Assembly: GCF_000021745.1 (NCBI RefSeq) | Contig: NC_011666.1 | Location: 3,623,001 to 3,687,000 of the forward strand | DNA: 64,000 bases | Direction: 5' to 3' | Source: Methylocella silvestris BL2 | GTDB lineage: Bacteria; Pseudomonadota; Alphaproteobacteria; Rhizobiales; Beijerinckiaceae | Shown here: positions 4,475 through 45,643 of the stretch, piece after piece | Numbering within the stretch: position 1 is the stretch's first letter | Layout of the letters: each line of letters starts with the position of its first letter | The notes under the pieces: generated by a model | Databases searched by the model: none | The model's input: only the letters and a program-made list of their open reading frames with translations | Told to the model about the DNA's origin: nothing | Program-made: the position numbers and the translations under genes

Positions 4475-5605
4475 ATGCCTTTTTCGATCGCTTGCGCGCG
4501 AATCGCCCTCCGGCTCGCGCTGACCCTTCCCGCCGCCTTCTGTGCGACTTCTGTTTCGGCGCAAGCCCCGGCGGCGACCCGTGTCGGCACAATTCTGGCC
4601 GCGAGGGAGCCCGTTAACCCGGCGCAGGAGTTCGTCGGCCGCGTCGAGGCGATCGAGCGCGTCAGCGTGCGCGCGCGCATCACCGGCTATTTGCAGGAGG
4701 TCCTGTTCAAGGAAGGCGACCTCGTCAAGCAAGGCGCACTTCTCTACCGCATCGAGCCGGAGCCGTTCCAGGCTGCGCTGCAGCAGGCGCAAGGCGCCCT
4801 CGTCAAAGCGCAGGGGCAGGAGGCGAACGCCGCCGTCCAACTCGATCGCGCCGAAACGCTGTTGAAGACGCAGTCCGGCTCCGTCGCCGTGCGCGACCAA
4901 CGGACCGCCGAATTCCAGACGACGAAAGGCGATGTGCTCGTCGCCGAAGCCAATGTGCAGGCCGCGAAGATCAATCTCAGCTATGCCGAGATCAAATCGC
5001 CGATATCCGGCGTCATCGGCCGCACCAGCGTCACCAAGGGCAATGTGGTCGGCCCAGACAGCGGCGTGCTGACGACGATCGTCAGCCAGGACCCGATGTA
5101 TGTCGTAGCCCCGGTCAGCCAGCGCGAATTCCTTCAGCTGAACGGCGAACAGCGTCGCCCTGGCGGCGGCGGCGGCGCTTTGACCGTGACCCTGCGTTTT
5201 TCCGACGGCTCGGCCTATGAGTTTCCTGGCAAGATCAATTTCATCGATGTCTCGGTCGACAAGGCGACCGACAGCGTGCTGGTGCGGGCGAGCTTTCCGA
5301 ATCCCCAGGGGCGACTGATCGACGGCCAATTGGTCAGATTTTCCATCACGGGCGACAAGCCGGAAGAAAAAATCCTGATCCCGCAGGCGGCGCTGATCGC
5401 CGATCAGCAGGGCGTTTATGTCTTTGTCGTCGAGGACGGCAAAGCCGCCGTCAAACGTCTGAAACTCGGCGGCGAAAGCGGGGCGAACGCCATCGTCGAT
5501 TCAGGGCTCGACGCCGGCGCTCAGGTCATCGTCGAAGGCATGGAGGTCCTGCGCGCCGGCGCGCCGGTGATCGCCTCGCCCGTCAAGACGCTCGGCCGGA
5601 GCTGA
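4475..5605 (+). CDS. RND efflux pump periplasmic adaptor (membrane fusion protein)
   Basis: It has a signal peptide ending near ...SVSAQA, then a lipoyl/barrel-sandwich half (VSVRARITGYLQEVLFKEGD), an alpha-helical hairpin region, the second lipoyl half (INLSYAEIKSPISGVIGRTS) and a C-terminal beta-barrel. This is the AcrA/MexE layout. The ATG at 4475 is preceded by GGAG at good spacing and begins the signal peptide; the frame is open further upstream, to 4430. It ends 3 bases before the RND permease, so the two form an operon. It would join the permease to an outer-membrane channel that is not encoded here. Confidence 0.92.
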   Translation: MPFSIACARIALRLALTLPAAFCATSVSAQAPAATRVGTILAAREPVNPAQEFVGRVEAIERVSVRARITGYLQEVLFKEGDLVKQGALLYRIEPEPFQAALQQAQGALVKAQGQEANAAVQLDRAETLLKTQSGSVAVRDQRTAEFQTTKGDVLVAEANVQAAKINLSYAEIKSPISGVIGRTSVTKGNVVGPDSGVLTTIVSQDPMYVVAPVSQREFLQLNGEQRRPGGGGGALTVTLRFSDGSAYEFPGKINFIDVSVDKATDSVLVRASFPNPQGRLIDGQLVRFSITGDKPEEKILIPQAALIADQQGVYVFVVEDGKAAVKRLKLGGESGANAIVDSGLDAGAQVIVEGMEVLRAGAPVIASPVKTLGRS

Positions 5606-33075: not shown

Positions 33076-36000
33076 ATGAACGTCAGTCGTCGCGGCTTTA
33101 TCAAGCTCACCGGCGCCGGGCTAGCGGCGTCAAGCCTCGGGGCGCTTGGCTTCGACCTCGCCGGCGCAGCGCTCGCCGCCGCAGTGCGGCCGTTCAAGCT
33201 CACGGCGACGACCGAGACGCGAAACACCTGCACCTATTGCTCGGTCGCCTGCGGCATTCTCATCTATAGCATGGGCGACCGCGCCAAGAATGCGCGCTCG
33301 GAGATCATGCACATCGAGGGCGATCCGGATCATCCGGTCAATCGCGGCACGCTCTGCCCCAAGGGATCGGCGCTGCTCGATATCGTGCATTCGCCGGGAC
33401 GCCTGACATCGCCTCAATATCGCGCCCCCGGCGCCAGCGCCTTCAGGCCGGTTTCTTGGGATTTCGCGCTCGGCCGCATCGCCACGCTGATGAAAGAGGA
33501 CCGTGACGCCAATTTCGTCGCCAAGAATGCGGCGGGAACCACGGTCAACCGCTGGCTCACGACCGGCATGCTGGCGGCGTCCGCGTCGTCGAGCGAGACG
33601 GCGATGCTGACGTGGAAAGTCGCCCGATCGTTCGGAATGCTCGTCTTCGACAATCAGGCGCGCGTCTGACACGGACCAACGGTGGCCAGTCTGGCTCCAA
33701 CATTTGGTCGCGGCGCAATGACGAACACCTGGCAGGACATCAAGAACGCTGATGTCGTGCTGGTGATGGGAGGCAATGCGGCCGAAGCGCATCCCTGCGG
33801 CTTCAAATGGGTGATCGAAGCCAAGCTTGAGAACAACGCCAAGCTGGTGGTCGTCGATCCGCGCTTTACGCGTACGGCCTCGGTCGCGGATTTCCACGCC
33901 CCGATCCGGCCCGGCACGGACATCGCCTTCCTCAACGGCGTCATCCGCTATCTGCTCGAAAAGGATGCGATCCAGCACGATTACGTGCGCGCCTACACCA
34001 GCGCCAGCCTGATCGTGAAGGATGGCTTTGGCTTCGAGGACGGGCTTTTCACCGGCTATAAGGAGGAGACGCGCAGCTACGACAAATCGAGCTGGAACTA
34101 TGATCTCGACGAGCAGGGCTTCGCCCGGATCGACGACACGTGGCAGGATCCGCGCTGCGTCATCAATCTGCTGCGCAAGCATGTCGACAGATATACGCCC
34201 GAGACGGTGTCGCGAATCTGCGGCACGCCGCAGGACAAATATCTGAAAGTCTGCGAAATGATCGCCGCGACGGCGGCGCCGGACAAGGCGCTGACCAGCC
34301 TGTTCGCGCTCGGCTGGACACAGCATTCGGTTGGCGCCCAGAACATCCGGGCGATGGCGATGGTCCAGCTGCTGCTCGGTAATATTGGCGTCGCCGGCGG
34401 CGGCATGAACGCCTTGCGCGGCCATTCCAATATTCAGGGCCTGACCGACGTCGGCCTGCTGTCGAACCAGATGCCCGGCTATATGACGCTGCCGAGCGAC
34501 AAGGAGCTCACCTTCGAAGACTATATGAAAACGCGGCAGTTCAAGCCGCTGCGTCCGGCCCAGACCAGCTATTGGCAGAACTACCGCAAATTCTTTGTGA
34601 GCTTCCAGAAGGCGGTCTATGGCGAGGCGGCGCGCGCCGACAATGATTGGGCCTATGACTGGCTGCCGAAGCTCGACGTGCCGATGTATGACATCATCCG
34701 CGCCTTCGAGATGATGGCGAACGGTCAGATGAACGGCTACATCTGCCAGGGCTTCAATCCGCTGCAGGCGTTCCCCGACAAGGGCAAGATCCGCAGGGGG
34801 CTGAGCAAGCTGAAGTTCCTCGTGACGATGGATCCGCTCGACACCGAGACGTCGCGGTTTTGGGAGAATTTCGGTCCGCAGAACCCGTCCGACCCGGCCA
34901 GCATCGCGACGGAAGTGTTCCAGCTGCCGACGACCTGCTTCGCCGAGGAAAACGGTTCGCTCGTGAATTCGGCGCGCTGGCTGCAATGGCACTGGAAGGC
35001 GGCGGACGGCCCGGGCGAGGCCAAATCCGATCTTTGGATTATGTCTGGCATCTTCCATCGCATGCGCGAAATGTACCGCAAGGACGGCGGCGCATTTGCG
35101 GATCCGATCTTGAACCTGACATGGGACTATGTCGATCCGGTCGAGCCGAATCCGGAAGAGCTTGCGAAGGAGATGAACGGCAAGGCGCTGACCGAGGTGA
35201 AGGATGCGTCGGGCGCCGTCACGCTGAAGGCCGGGCAGCTGCTCGACGGCTTCGCGCAATTGCGCGACGACGGGACGACGGCGTCTGGCTGCTGGATCTT
35301 TTCGGGGTGCTATACCGAGAAGGGCAATCAGATGGCGCGCCGCGACGCGAGCGACCCGCGCGAGCAGGGCATTGCGCCAAACTGGGCCTGGGCGTGGCCG
35401 GCCAACCGGCGCATTCTTTATAATCGCGCCAGCGCCGACGTCGCCGGCAAGGCGTGGAATCCGCAAAAGCCGATCATCGAATGGAACGGCAGCCGATGGG
35501 CGGGCATCGACGTGCCCGATTATGGCCCGACGGTGAAGCCGTCGGACGGCGTCGGTCCGTTCATCATGAATGCGGAAGGGGTTGGGCGCTTGTTTGCGCG
35601 CGACCAGATGGCGGAGGGACCGTTCCCGGAGCATTACGAGCCCTTCGAATCGCCTTCGCCGAATATTCTGCATCCGAAGGTGCGCTCGAACCCGGCGGCG
35701 CGGGTGTTCGCCGACGACAGGGCCGCCTTCGGCGAAGCTTCGGAGTTCCCCTATGTGGCGACCACCTACCGGTTGACGGAGCATTTCCACTACTGGACCA
35801 AACATGCGCTGATCAACGCCATCCTGCAGCCGGAAGAGTTTATCGAAATCGGCGAAGTTCTGGCGAAGGAAAAAGGCATCGAGCAGGGCGGCTGGGTCCG
35901 TCTTGCCTCGAAGCGCGGCGTCGTCGTTTGCAAGGCCTATGTGACCAAACGCATCAAGCCGATGCTGGTCGACGGAAAACCAACGCATGTAATCGGGGTG

Positions 36001-39932: not shown

Positions 39933-40979
39933 ATGCTCGATGCTCCCGTGCGCCTCACCGATCTCGCCCATGGCGGCGGCTGCGGCTGTAAACTGGCGCC
40001 CTCCGTTCTGCAGCAGCTCCTCGCCAATCAACCTCAGGCTGCGCCTTATGCGCAGCTTCTGGTCGGCACGGAGACCGGCGACGACGCGGCAGTCTGGCAG
40101 ATCGACGAGGAGCGCTGCGTCATCGCCACGACCGACTTCTTCATGCCGATGGTCGACGATCCGCGGGATTTCGGCCGCATCGCGGCGGCCAATGCGCTGT
40201 CGGATATTTACGCCATGGGCGGAACGCCGATCATGGCGCTGGCCATTCTCGGAATGCCGCTCGGAAAGCTGCCGATTGAAACCGTGCGCGCGATCCTTGC
40301 GGGCGGCGCCTCGATCTGCGCCGAGGCCAGCATTCCTGTCGCGGGGGGCCATTCGATCGACTCGCCGGAGCCGATCTACGGACTTGCGGTCGTCGGGCTT
40401 TGCGCCGTCAGCGATATCCGCCGCAATTCGGGCGCGCGCCCCGGCGACGCGCTGATCCTGACCAAGGGCATCGGCGTCGGCGTCTATTCGGCGGCGTTCA
40501 AGAAGCAGGCGCTGAGTAATGCGGCCTATGAAGAGATGATGGCCTCGACGACGCTGTTGAACCGCGTCGGCCACAAGCTGGCGAAGGACGACGACGTCCA
40601 CGCCATGACGGATGTGACCGGCTTCGGCCTGCTTGGCCATGGCGTCGAGCTCGCGCGCGGCGGAGGCGTCGCGCTCGACATCGATTTCGCCCGCATCCCT
40701 TTCCTGAAGGAGGCTCAGGAGCTGGCCGAGGCCGGCCTAATTACCGGAGCCTCCGGACGCAACTGGGCGAGCTATGGCGACGCCGTTGTGCTGCCGGCTG
40801 AAACGCCGGACTGGCGGCGCGCGCTGCTGACCGATCCGCAGACCTCCGGCGGGCTCCTCATCGCCTGCGCTCCGGAGCGCGCCGAAGCGATCCGCGGGAC
40901 CATCGAGGCTGCGGGCTTTCCTCGCGCGACGATCATCGGCGCCGTCGCCGCGGGCGAGCCAGCCGTCCGGATCGGCTGA
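39933..40979 (+). CDS. selD: Selenide, water dikinase (selenophosphate synthetase)
   Basis: This 348-residue protein begins the SelD family core at [21 protein letters not shown]; the position that is Sec or Cys in the family is Cys here. Gly-rich ATP sites ([25 protein letters not shown]) and [11 protein letters not shown] are present. The enzyme uses ATP and selenide to make selenophosphate, the Se donor for SelA. The ATG at 39933 has AAGG upstream; an open frame extends further back but overlaps the divergent permease gene. Confidence 0.96.
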
Positions 40980-40985
40980 CGCCCA

Positions 40986-41369
40986 TTACTGTTTGGCTAT
41001 TTCCTCAAGCTTGAGCCGCAAACCCTGCGCGTTGAAAAACGCGCCCTCGTTCAGGAGCGACCGGTCCTTGGCGAGATGGCGTCCGAGCGCCGCCAGCCGC
41101 CGTCCCGCGGTCGCGTCGTCCACCAGCCCCGCCCGGTCCGCCTGAAAAAAAGCCGCGCCGTTCCAGCGCGCGCCGGAGGCGGCGAACAGGGCGGTCATAT
41201 CCGGCCATCGCGTCGCATCGCCGATGACATGGAGATAGGACGAGGCGGCGAGATCGACCGAAGTCGCGCCAATCTCCACGAGCACGATCAGCATGGTGAA
41301 GGCGCCGGTCCGTTCGAAGACGCCAGCGAGCCAGTCATCGAAATCAACGAGGCGAGGCGGCGCGCTCAT
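40986..41369 (-). CDS. Unknown small protein coupled to selB
   Basis: This 127-residue protein is not recognised. It starts with ATGA overlapping the selB stop codon, so it is translated directly after SelB. It contains a short hydrophobic stretch (FTMLIVLVEIGATSVDLAAS) and a mixed helical remainder (AGRRLAALGRHLAKDRSLLNEGAFFNAQGLRLKLEEIAKQ). There is no signal peptide, cysteine pair or recognisable motif. Its position suggests a role in selenocysteine incorporation or formate dehydrogenase maturation; this is inference. Confidence 0.7.
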   Translation of the reverse strand: MSAPPRLVDFDDWLAGVFERTGAFTMLIVLVEIGATSVDLAASSYLHVIGDATRWPDMTALFAASGARWNGAAFFQADRAGLVDDATAGRRLAALGRHLAKDRSLLNEGAFFNAQGLRLKLEEIAKQ

Positions 41370-43441
41370 GTCCCACCCCGTGGAGGGAACAGGGAATTTG
41401 GCGGAAGAGAATGGGAGTCGAACCCACCTGAAACAGTCTCGCTGCCCCACCCGGATTTGAAGTCCGGACGCCCCACCGGGGACGATTCTCCTCCGTCCGC
41501 GCCCGATGATGGCCTCGGGGCGCCAAACAAGTCCAGCCGGCGGGGATCCAGCCGGCGAAGATCGCCCTTATGCACAGTGACGCCATGGCGATCGAAAAAT
41601 TCGAGGATCTGGATCGCCACCTTGCGGCCATTGCCGAGCAGATCGCGAAATTGCGCCGCCGTGAAAGCGCCGTCCGGCTGGGCGCCCGCGAGTTTAGCGA
41701 TGATGTCCGTCATTTCATGGACGATGGGGCGCAAGAAGAAATGGTCGTGCGCGACCTCATCCGCGAGGCCCATCCGCCCGGCGAGCTTCAACAGGCGGCG
41801 CACGTCGCCCTCCAGCCGTCCTGTCGCCGCTGCGATATCGCGCACCCTTGGCGGACGAAACCGCGCATCGCCGCCAAGCAACGGGGCAATGGCCTCCCAC
41901 GCCGCTTCATCCTTCGGCGCGAAACGCGCCTCATGCGCGGCGAGCCTGACAAACGAGCCGTCGAGGGCGATCGCCATCTCCCGCGCCGCCTTTTGCAGCG
42001 CCGCGAGGAAGGCGGGCGCGGGCAGGCGCGGGAGCAAAAAGAGCCGAAGCTTTTCCCGTCCGATTCCCTGAAGGTCCGGATTTTCGATATGAAAGGCGGA
42101 GAGTCTCTCCATGATGCTCGTCATGAAATCTCGCCACCTTGCGGCAGAAATGGCGAAGCGGGTCGCGCCCGCTGGCAGAACGACCAGGCTCAACGCCTTT
42201 TCCAGCTCCTCCGTCTGCGCCTCGCTCAAAACCCGGTCGCCTGCGAAAATCGCGAGGTCCGCGGTAAACGGCGCCGTCTCCAAAAGAGCGCCGAAGGCCG
42301 AGCGCGGATCTTCAAGCGCAAGCGCGGCGCGCTGCGCTGCGCGCTCGGGCGTTCGCCGGCGTCGCAAAGGCGGACGCAGATCGATGAAGACGCCCCCGCC
42401 GATGGTGCGCTGCGCCGACACGTCGCGGATCACATAGCGGTCCTGCGCCGCGGCGGCGATCGGCGCGTCGAGCGCAAGCTGGACGTCAGCCGAGGCGCCC
42501 GGCCGGATCGGCTCGTCGCCGAGCAGAACAATGCGCGCGCCGACCTCGGCGGCGGCGTGGTGCAGCCGCACCGGAAACCATTGGCCGATCGGTTTGGCTT
42601 CATGAGCCAAAATCCGTAGTCGGGCGTCGATACGGTCCGTCGGCGCATGCAGCCCGGGGTCAAGCACGATATCGCCGCGCTGAACCGTCTCTTTCGACAC
42701 GTCGGGGCCGGCGAGATTGAGCGCGCAGCGATCGCCCGCCCTGCCGCTCTCGGCGGGTCTGTTTTGCGCATGCAGCGAGCGCACGCGCGCCGGGACGCCC
42801 GAAGGGCTGATCATGACATGGTCGCCGACATGCACCGATCCCGATAGAACGGCGCCAGTCACCACCACGCCAACGCCCTGCAGCGTAAAGGAACGGTCGA
42901 CCGGCAGCCGGAAGCGGCCTTGCGCCGGTCGCGTGGTCTCCGCAATCGCTGTGGCGACAAGCCGGGCGCGCAGTTGGTCGATCCCCGCGCCGGTCAGCGT
43001 CGAGACCGCTGCGACATCGGCGCCCTCCAGCGCGGTTCCGGCGACCGCCCGCTGGATCTCGGCCTCCACTTCCGCGAGCCGACCGGGGCCCGTAAGATCA
43101 GCCTTGGTGATGACGATAAGGCCGCGCGCAATGCCGAGCAGATCGATGATGGCGAGATGCTCCAGCGTCTGCGGTTTGATCCCATCATCAGCGGCGACCG
43201 CGAGAAGAACGAAATCGATCCCGCTCGCGCCGGCCAGCATCGTGTGCACGAAGCGCTCATGGCCCGGAACATCGACGAAGCCGAGCGTTTGTCCGCCCTC
43301 GACCGGCAGATAGGCAAAGCCGAGATCGATGGTCATGCCGCGCGCTTTTTCCTGCGCGAGGCGATCGCCCTCGACCCCTGTCAGAGCCTTGACGAGGGCG
43401 GTCTTGCCATGGTCGATATGGCCGGCGACGCCAATAATCAT
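41366..43441 (-). CDS. selB: Selenocysteine-specific elongation factor SelB, frame runs through selC
   Basis: The N-terminal GTPase has G1 GHIDHGKT (residues 7-14), DVPGHERF (57-64) and TKAD (112-115), followed by two beta-barrel domains and C-terminal winged-helix repeats that bind the SECIS. SelB brings Sec-tRNA to UGA codons. The winged-helix part ends near DPRRLDLFG; the frame then runs about 50 residues further, and codons 650-681 are the tRNA-Sec gene itself. The stop (TGA) overlaps the next gene's ATG. The tail is not expected in the family. Confidence 0.93.
41399..41494 (-). tRNA. selC: tRNA-Sec (selenocysteine, anticodon UCA)
   Basis: The 96-base sequence folds as tRNA-Sec: an 8-bp acceptor stem (GGAGGAGA with TCTCTTCC, one G-T pair), an anticodon arm GGACTTCAAATCC with UCA at 41458-41460, a long variable arm, the T arm GTGGGTTCGACTCCCA-like sequence and an encoded CCA at 41399-41401. 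The 8-bp acceptor and long extra arm are diagnostic. It lies wholly inside the 3' part of the selB frame on the same strand. Confidence 0.93.
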
Positions 43442-44214
43442 GCCGCCTCGAGCTTCTGCCGCGCCCGCCCTTCGGCGTCTGCGATCTGCTGCGGCGAGAG
43501 CGCCGCGCGGGCGGCCCCGACGAAAGGCGCGGCCAGCGCGCTGCCGCCGGTCTCTCCGCGCAGCAGCCAGATCAGCGCCTCGCTCTGATCAGCCGGCGCG
43601 CCGGCGCCCAGATGGAGCGCCGCGCCCAGCATCGCCTGCGCATCGGCTTCGCCGAGCAAAGCGGCGCGCCGCCACCAGGCGACGGCGGCCGACGCGTCCC
43701 GCTCGACCCCGGTTGCGTTGTGGTAGAACATGCCTAGTCGGGCCATCGCTGCGGCGACGCCGTTTTCGGCGGCGGCGAGCGCGAGGCGCCGCGATTCGTC
43801 CAGATTGGCCGGGATCAACCGGCCCTCGAGCAACATCCAGCTCAGCATGTCCTGCGCCGGCCCATCTCCCTGTTCGGCGGCGGCGCGGTAGAGTTCGGCG
43901 GCTCTCACGCCGTCGCTCTCAACGCCGCTCCCCTTGAAATAGGCGGTGGCGAGGTTCCGCTGCCCCACCGGATCGCCGGCTTCCGCGGCAAGGGCCAGCC
44001 ATTTCAGCGCGAGGGCAGAGTCGCGCGCGACGCCGAGTCCTTCAGAAAAACAGGCGCCGATATTGTTTTGCGCGCGCGCCACTCCAGCGTGGGCGAGCGG
44101 TCCCCATATCGCCAGCGCGGCCGCGTAATCGCCGGCGTCGGCGGCCGCGCGCGCCTTGGCCATCACGGCGGCGACGTCTTCGCGGCCCCTTGTCAGTCGC
44201 TCAAGCCAGCGCAT
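43438..44214 (-). CDS. Sel1/tetratricopeptide-repeat protein in the selA-selB operon
   Basis: This 258-residue protein has at least five Sel1-like repeats, for example [34 protein letters not shown] and [35 protein letters not shown]. Such repeats form helical solenoids that bind other proteins. No signal peptide is evident. It overlaps selA by 14 bases and selB by ATGA, so it is part of the selenium operon. Its role there is unknown; scaffold or adaptor is inference. Confidence 0.85.
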
Positions 44215-45643
44215 CGGCGTCAAGCGCGGAAAGGGACGACAAAAACCCCGCCTCATCGGTGAGACAGCGCAGATCGAGCAACAGGCCGCCATCCTCGATG
44301 CGACCGATTATGGGCCTTGCGAGCGCCCGCAAGGCGCCCGCTAGCCGCTCGAGCGAACGGCTTCCATTGGTGGGGCGGATGATCAGGCCCGCACTCTCGA
44401 TCGTATCGAGCGGAAGCGCGCCGGAACCGACCTGGCTGCGGCAAAGGCGAAGCGCGACCTGATAGGCCGGCTCGACCGCCACCGCCGCGGCAGGCAGGAG
44501 ACGGCGCGCCTGCGCTTCGATCTCCGCCAGCGGCCGGGCCAGCAGCCGCAGGGTCGGCAGCCGCTCCGCGAGCCGATCCGGATCGCGATAGAGTTTCAGC
44601 GTCGCCTCGATCGCCGCCAGCCGGATCTTGTCGACCCGGAGCGCGCGCTTCATCGGATTGCGGTTGACGGCCTCGATCAGCGCGCGGGCGCCGACGATGA
44701 AGCCCGCCTGCGGACCGCCGAGCAATTTGTCGCCGGAAAAGGTCACGAGCCCGGAGCCCTCCCGCACCGCCTCGCGCACTGTCGGCTCTCTTTGCAGCCC
44801 GTAACGCGACAGATCGATCAACGTGCCCGAGCCGAGATCGTTCATCAGCGGCACATTCGCCTGTCCCGCCAGGGCGGCGAGCTCCGCTGCGCCGACCTCG
44901 GCGGTAAAGCCCTCGATGCGGTAGTTCGAGGTGTGCACTTTCAGGATCACCCCGGTTTGCGCGCTGAGCGCCACGCGGTAATCCTTAAGATGGGTGCGAT
45001 TCGTCGTGCCGACCTCCACAAGCTTCGCGCCGGCGCGGGCCATGATGTCCGGCATGCGGAAGGCGCCGCCGATTTCGATCAGTTCGCCGCGCGACACGAT
45101 CGCCTCGCGGCCGGCGGCCAGCGTGTTGAGACAGAGCAGCACGGCAGCCGCATTGTTGTTGACGAGCGTCGCATCCTCCGCGCCGGTGAGCTCGCAGAGC
45201 AGGGCGCGGACATGATCGTCGCGCTCGCCGCGCTTGCCGGTTTCGAGGTCGAACTCAAGCGCGACCGGATCGCGCATCGCGGCGACGGCGGCCTCGATCG
45301 CCGCCTCAGCCAGCACCGCGCGGCCGAGATTGGTGTGCAGCACCGTGCCGGTGAGGTTGAACAGCGGCCGCATGTTGGAGAGCTCGTCCGCCTCGAGCGA
45401 TGCTTCCGCCGCCCGCGCCAGCACGGCGGCGTCGGGCGCGTGGGAGGCGCCGCCGGCGATGGCCGCGCGCGCATCCGCCAGCGCGGCGCGGACGGCGTCG
45501 GTCGAGGCGGCGCGCCCAAAACGCTCCAGCATCGCGAGCGCTGCGGGCGCCTTCAAAACGGCGTCGACGGACGGGAGATCGCGCAGGCGGCCGGAGCTGG
45601 ATCCTTCCATCAGAGCCTCAGGCGCCGAAACGATCTGCGCCAA
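44201..45643 (-). CDS. selA: L-seryl-tRNA(Sec) selenium transferase
   Basis: The 480-residue PLP enzyme has the SelA core: FNLTGTVLHTNLGRAVLAE, RDDHVRALLCELTGAEDATLVNNNAAAVLL, and the PLP lysine K306 in TFSGDKLLGGPQAG. It converts seryl-tRNA(Sec) to selenocysteyl-tRNA(Sec) with selenophosphate from SelD. It is the first gene of the minus-strand selenium operon, followed with overlap by the Sel1-repeat gene and selB. Length and motifs are normal. Confidence 0.96.
   Translation of the reverse strand: MAQIVSAPEALMEGSSSGRLRDLPSVDAVLKAPAALAMLERFGRAASTDAVRAALADARAAIAGGASHAPDAAVLARAAEASLEADELSNMRPLFNLTGTVLHTNLGRAVLAEAAIEAAVAAMRDPVALEFDLETGKRGERDDHVRALLCELTGAEDATLVNNNAAAVLLCLNTLAAGREAIVSRGELIEIGGAFRMPDIMARAGAKLVEVGTTNRTHLKDYRVALSAQTGVILKVHTSNYRIEGFTAEVGAAELAALAGQANVPLMNDLGSGTLIDLSRYGLQREPTVREAVREGSGLVTFSGDKLLGGPQAGFIVGARALIEAVNRNPMKRALRVDKIRLAAIEATLKLYRDPDRLAERLPTLRLLARPLAEIEAQARRLLPAAAVAVEPAYQVALRLCRSQVGSGALPLDTIESAGLIIRPTNGSRSLERLAGALRALARPIIGRIEDGGLLLDLRCLTDEAGFLSSLSALDADALA

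Follow-up and report, generated by a model that had tools for sequence, protein, structure and literature searches.

Comparative evidence for selection on the selB reading frame that runs through the tRNA-Sec gene of Methylocella silvestris

In the 64,000-nucleotide stretch of Methylocella silvestris BL2 DNA analysed here, hereafter the window, the reading frame of selB continues past the end of the SelB core and runs through the entire gene for tRNA-Sec (selC). This raises the question of whether ribosomes pass through the tRNA sequence, and whether the frame is kept open by selection or is open by chance. The nested arrangement as such is already known: Mukai 2021 (PMC8124441) described it across Alphaproteobacteria, together with an overlap of the selB stop and the following start, and proposed a model in which tRNA processing yields a nonstop selB mRNA and thereby represses full-length SelB. 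The nesting is restated in two reviews (PMC9312934, PMC13188914), and a literature search, with most subscription papers outside its scope, returned no experimental test of it. What is added here is quantitative evidence, obtained by comparing sequences, that the part of the frame crossing the tRNA is under selection as a reading frame.

The selB frame occupies positions 43441-41366 of the minus strand and comprises 691 codons, from an ATG to a TGA at 41368-41366, as taken from the ORF listing and the sequence. Residues 1-631 match the selB model TIGR00475 with 401.4 bits (equivalog cut-off 242.25); this model and the Pfam model SelB-wing_3 both finish at residue 631, and alignment places the conserved DLF end of the SelB core at residue 639. 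A spacer of ten codons (41495-41524, minus strand; sequence and alignment) leads from this DLF motif, which closes the last winged helix, to nucleotide 1 of selC, a tRNA-Sec gene of 96 nucleotides including an encoded CCA (41494-41399, minus strand), which is followed by a tail of ten codons and the TGA (41366-41398, minus strand; sequence). ARAGORN reported a tRNA-Sec with the anticodon UCA at 41399-41495 on the strand of selB, and Rfam RF01852 matched positions 41494-41403 with 77.2 bits (gathering score 47); once the discriminator and the CCA are counted, the gene spans 41494-41399 and, as read from the sequence, begins at selB codon 650. Its length is a multiple of three, and the selB frame remains in register across the entire tRNA and open to the CCA. 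The original prediction that selB runs through the whole 96-nt selC gene (codons 650-681) was thus borne out by the ORF listing, ARAGORN and RF01852, as was the tail of roughly 50 residues past the winged helix: with the core ending at residue 631-639, about 50-60 residues are predicted to extend past the known SelB protein.

A scan of the single-contig genome (4,305,430 bp) with RF01852 returned 13 matches, the strongest of which is selC; the second best (50.2 bits) is a tRNA-Ser with the anticodon TGA according to ARAGORN, and selC is the sole strong tRNA-Sec match in the genome. The arrangement recurs, open and in phase and with an identical ATGA at the selB stop, in Methylocella silvestris TVC (L009), whose SelB is 95% identical, and a sequencing error as the source of the open frame is therefore very unlikely. 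The RNA around the tRNA is predicted to fold no more stably than shuffled sequences (z 0.84).

The overlap of the selB TGA with the start of the next gene, likewise predicted, is an ATGA at 41369-41366 shared with ORF-A (40986-41369, minus strand; 127 aa), a member of a family of unknown function with matches in 26 other loci of our set. Upstream of selB lies a Sel1-repeat gene (43438-44292, minus strand; Pfam Sel1, 114.1 bits), the stop of which overlaps the selB ATG, again as ATGA; it is in turn overlapped by selA (44201-45643, minus strand; Pfam SelA, 544 bits), provided that the Sel1-repeat gene begins at its listed ATG. The order on the minus strand is selA, Sel1-repeat gene, selB, selC and ORF-A, with the protein genes overlapping successively, and all five are probably carried on one transcript. 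Convergent to this operon is a gene at 39933-40979 of the plus strand, which we read as selD from its Pfam AIRS and AIRS_C domains and its neighbourhood; its N-terminal GGGCGCK motif, read from the sequence, contains Cys codons and no UGA. SECIS_3 matches the genome only once (33664-33722, plus strand), inside a gene identified by eye as formate dehydrogenase-like. The genome also encodes a tmRNA of the alpha type.

The locus resembles the nested genes of Mukai 2021 (PMC8124441) in that the entire tRNA-Sec lies in register and adds C-terminal residues to SelB, in the overlap of the selB stop with the start of an ORF that Mukai found to be limited to Alphaproteobacteria, and in the proximity of fdo and a sel cluster, represented here by the SECIS_3 element in the formate dehydrogenase-like gene and by SelA, Sel1 and selD-type domains. 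Methylocella is not named in the text of that study, which lists species in its figures, and the tests for frame selection made here are absent from its text. It reports that most of the tRNAs have a length divisible by three, with the frame kept to the CCA end; it also reports nested tRNAs of 95 nucleotides, whereas none occurred among our 60 nested loci. Mukai 2021 (PMC8124441) also cites a further comparable case, the mitochondrial tRNA-Lys in cox1 of Armadillidium, where a tRNA likewise lies inside a protein-coding frame and in the same orientation, albeit in a compact animal mitochondrial genome.

To compare SelB C-termini and the position of selC across relatives, we collected loci from the best 80 of 235 SelB relatives and sampled tRNA-Sec loci across the order, the phylum and the class. 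The resulting set holds 209 loci (L009-L216 and the window; L001-L008, from the same genome as the window, were excluded), and ARAGORN found a full tRNA-Sec in 206 of them, the exceptions being L066, L080 and L085. A selB gene was found upstream in 149 loci, and these comprise 60 nested, 11 partial and 78 separate arrangements; in the other 57 of 206 no selB was found upstream, some of these loci coming from short contigs or 1.5-kb flanks or carrying a SelB too distant for tblastn. Some genomes are present twice, as identical or same-length pairs (among them L010/L090, L016/L174, L063/L103, L053/L166 and L074/L196); clustering of SelB at 70% identity removes such duplicates, and beyond that the counts are not phylogenetically independent. 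Changes were counted on a SelB tree from a quick IQ-TREE run, in which 48 of 142 inner branches are open. The sample of the best 80 is biased to nested loci, as the query contained the tail, and prevalence was thus taken from the order and class samples only: among genomes with tRNA-Sec, nesting occurs in 8 of 31 in the former and in 3 of 55 in the latter (the window being counted in both), and is a minority arrangement in either.

Wherever the tRNA is nested, selB enters it in phase 0 (60/60 loci, and 19/19 representatives of the 70% clusters), whereas the separate loci are spread evenly over the three phases (26/25/27, n=78). The tRNA is 96 nucleotides long in all 60 nested loci as compared with 54 of the 78 separate ones, and 97 nucleotides long in 6 of the 11 partial ones; nested tRNAs end in an encoded CCA in 55 cases and in CCG or CCC in five. 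The spacer of nested loci ranges from 0 to 99 nucleotides, and on the SelB tree its length changed at least 21 times, every time by a multiple of three, as opposed to at least 32 changes of spacer phase in the separate loci.

Could a tRNA gene that happens to be free of stops, in GC-rich DNA beside a selB gene that lost its own stop, account for the arrangement? An open frame is indeed cheap: 49 of the 78 separate loci and 40 of the 57 loci for which no selB was found upstream, about two thirds of the non-nested genes, have no stop in frame 0 of tRNA-Sec, and we therefore discarded openness by itself as evidence and relied on the phase, the spacer and the position of the stop. Nested tRNAs are open in their other two frames in 48/60 and 55/60 loci, so that a frameshift alone would not end the frame inside the tRNA. 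Past the tRNA, the selB frame meets a stop within 15 codons in 59 of the 60 nested loci, the other frames in only 17 and 18, with median distances of 7, 41.5 and 32 codons, respectively; the sole exception (L027) stops at 48 codons. Among 113 distinct control tRNAs the corresponding counts are 35, 47 and 42. As frame +2 codes for the next ORF wherever an ATGA is present, frame +1 and the 41 nested loci without an ATGA-type overlap provide the fairer comparison, and in these loci the stop lies within 15 codons in 41/41 cases in frame 0 and in 13 and 17 cases in the other frames. The 70% clusters gave the same picture (18/19 against 3 and 3). Although the tail changed in length at least 29 times, the stop remained close. 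By the phase, spacer and stop tests, which agree across many lineages, the nested arrangement is more than chance; we regard chance as a very improbable explanation for its upkeep, though it could still be the origin.

Codon 16 of the tRNA (nucleotides 46-48) is a stop in no nested locus, but in 25 of 78 separate loci, in 16 of the 57 in which no selB was found upstream, and in all 11 partial loci, where it is the stop of selB. Seven of these partial loci are named Dyella and one Mesorhizobium. As in the partial selB-selC genes of Dyella and Luteibacter (PMC8124441), selB in the nested loci enters the tRNA in phase 0; the partial genes differ in ending at a TGA at nucleotides 46-48.

We then asked whether the additional peptide itself might be the object of selection, for instance as a functional SelB domain with the tRNA or the ribosome as its binding partner. 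In keeping with this idea the frame is kept, and remnants of a tRNA still lie in the translated frame in Mesorhizobium temperatum (L066) and Microvirga calopogonii (L080), as also described for Sinorhizobium meliloti (Mukai 2021, PMC8124441). However, the spacer varies from 0 to 99 nucleotides, and in 20 close pairs, with tails included only where they are equal in length, dN/dS amounts to 0.68 in the spacer and 0.70 in the tail, as compared with 0.15 in the last 100 codons of the SelB core; the value for the tRNA stretch is 0.87, and the conservation seen there is accounted for by the RNA alone. A functional tail domain hence appears improbable, and the data fit ribosome passage with an ending just past the tRNA better. 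As the frame stays continuous and ends early even as its residues drift, selection appears to act on the passage of ribosomes: it holds the frame open and closes it soon, and the peptide made seems hardly to matter. With the peptide nearly neutral and the frame both kept open and promptly ended, ribosomes very probably cross the tRNA sequence. The original prediction that they run through the tRNA is in this respect well supported by the comparison, that is, by the conserved frame, tRNA length and prompt in-frame stop. Given the nearly neutral spacer and tail and 8 state changes on the SelB tree, nesting is favoured rather than essential.

Our preferred reading, to which we assign a probability of about 0.6, is that of a single transcript on which selection maintains ribosome passage. 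Ribosomes translating selB would run past the protein core and across the tRNA, extending SelB by about 50 tolerated residues, and would end at the ATGA, where they might start ORF-A. If instead RNase P and the enzymes of 3′ processing excised the folded tRNA, nonstop SelB, which tmRNA would presumably clear, would be the only SelB product of that transcript, and ORF-A would receive no ribosomes. Tail-bearing SelB and ORF-A on the one hand and tRNA-Sec on the other would then stem from separate transcript molecules. Provided that selC lacks its own promoter, the release of the tRNA and the synthesis of SelB would draw on the same RNA, as in the model of Mukai 2021 (PMC8124441), and we infer competition of ribosome passage with tRNA processing on this basis. 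Somewhat more tentatively, one may picture a choice made on each transcript, in which either the ribosome unfolds the tRNA, giving SelB and ORF-A, or RNase P cuts the tRNA out first and SelB synthesis on that RNA ceases; a stoichiometry switch between the tRNA and its elongation factor would then be held by selection on passage alone; this is possible, though we lean against it.

One alternative is that selC is served by a promoter of its own inside selB, the tail being translated but harmless, the transcripts separate and the nesting without regulatory effect. The repeated switching of the nesting state and the almost unconstrained spacer and tail peptide would agree with it, and so would the 57 of 206 loci in which no selB was found upstream of tRNA-Sec, some of them from short flanks or with distant SelB: as such loci are common, a tRNA-Sec gene need not depend on selB for its expression. 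A consensus scan limited to the sigma-70 type, however, revealed no sigma-70-like promoter in 40900-43500, and an own promoter leaves the maintenance of the frame unexplained. Fourfold sites in the last 25 core codons show no extra conservation in 20 nested pairs (0.27 different) relative to 16 separate pairs (0.23), which might carry a promoter too. Altogether, we consider an own promoter rather unlikely. If ribosomes and tRNA processing as in the single-transcript reading truly compete for one RNA, this would be a simple tie between the amounts of an elongation factor and of its single tRNA, and the tRNA gene would be doubly constrained, as an RNA and as an open frame. The prediction stems from the earlier publication; the results on frame selection make its translated half credible.

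The need for the frame may come partly from the next gene. The selB stop overlaps the following ORF by ATGA in 17 of 60 nested loci (11 with ORF-A and 6 with a second family, ORF-B), a tally that covers only the region past the tRNA and for which separate and partial loci give no control. In addition, selB and ORF-A overlap by TGATG in L016 and L174, which represent either one genome or two that are very similar, and ORF-B starts within the selB tail in L044 and L049. As 37 of 60 nested loci lack an ORF of 80 aa or more that starts at or before the selB stop, and the ORFs of two more (L043, L045) are doubtful, coupling cannot be the whole reason, and another factor, such as the matching of SelB to the tRNA supply, may contribute. 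Excision of the tRNA would leave ORF-A or ORF-B with a leader of at most 29 nucleotides in 16 of the 17 ATGA loci. The pairing that would hide a ribosome-binding site for ORF-A was mixed. The notion that coupled ORFs lack ribosome-binding sites of their own was contradicted by the anti-Shine-Dalgarno energies, with medians of -4.1 kcal/mol for 17 coupled starts and -2.65 kcal/mol for 8 of 10 uncoupled ORFs (two are without a start coordinate).

ORF-A (about 126 aa) and ORF-B (about 150 aa, mostly helical) represent two uncharacterised families that accompany selB-selC in many loci. Neither matched a family above the cut-off; their predicted structures have mean pLDDT values of 84.8 and 88.4, respectively, and the models gave no fold match in a PDB library at E <= 0.001. 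In Faunimonas pinastri (L085, about 4923-5366; L217), selB and ORF-A are joined by ATGA while the tRNA-Sec is elsewhere in the genome, and coupling of the two is therefore possible without a tRNA between them. In Rhizobiales bacterium 32-66-11 (L027), a long, repeat-like tail of 147 nucleotides extends from the tRNA to the end of selB, which forms an ATGA with ORF-B.

Mesorhizobium temperatum (L066, 4960-5025; L218) carries about half a tRNA-Sec in frame in selB, with an intact tRNA-Sec, to which ORF-B is adjoined downstream, elsewhere in the genome, a split that resembles the one described for Sinorhizobium meliloti. The selB gene of Microvirga calopogonii (L080, 4954-5026) contains a degenerate tRNA-Sec, and a search of its assembly for a tRNA-Sec elsewhere gave two matches that ARAGORN identified as tRNA-Ser and tRNA-Tyr and no tRNA-Sec, which points either to a gap in the assembly or to a selenocysteine system in decay. 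Finally, a metagenome-assembled genome labelled Candidatus Eremiobacteraeota (L020) has a partial selB-selC and groups with Dyella in the SelB tree, a placement that reflects either bin contamination or transfer.
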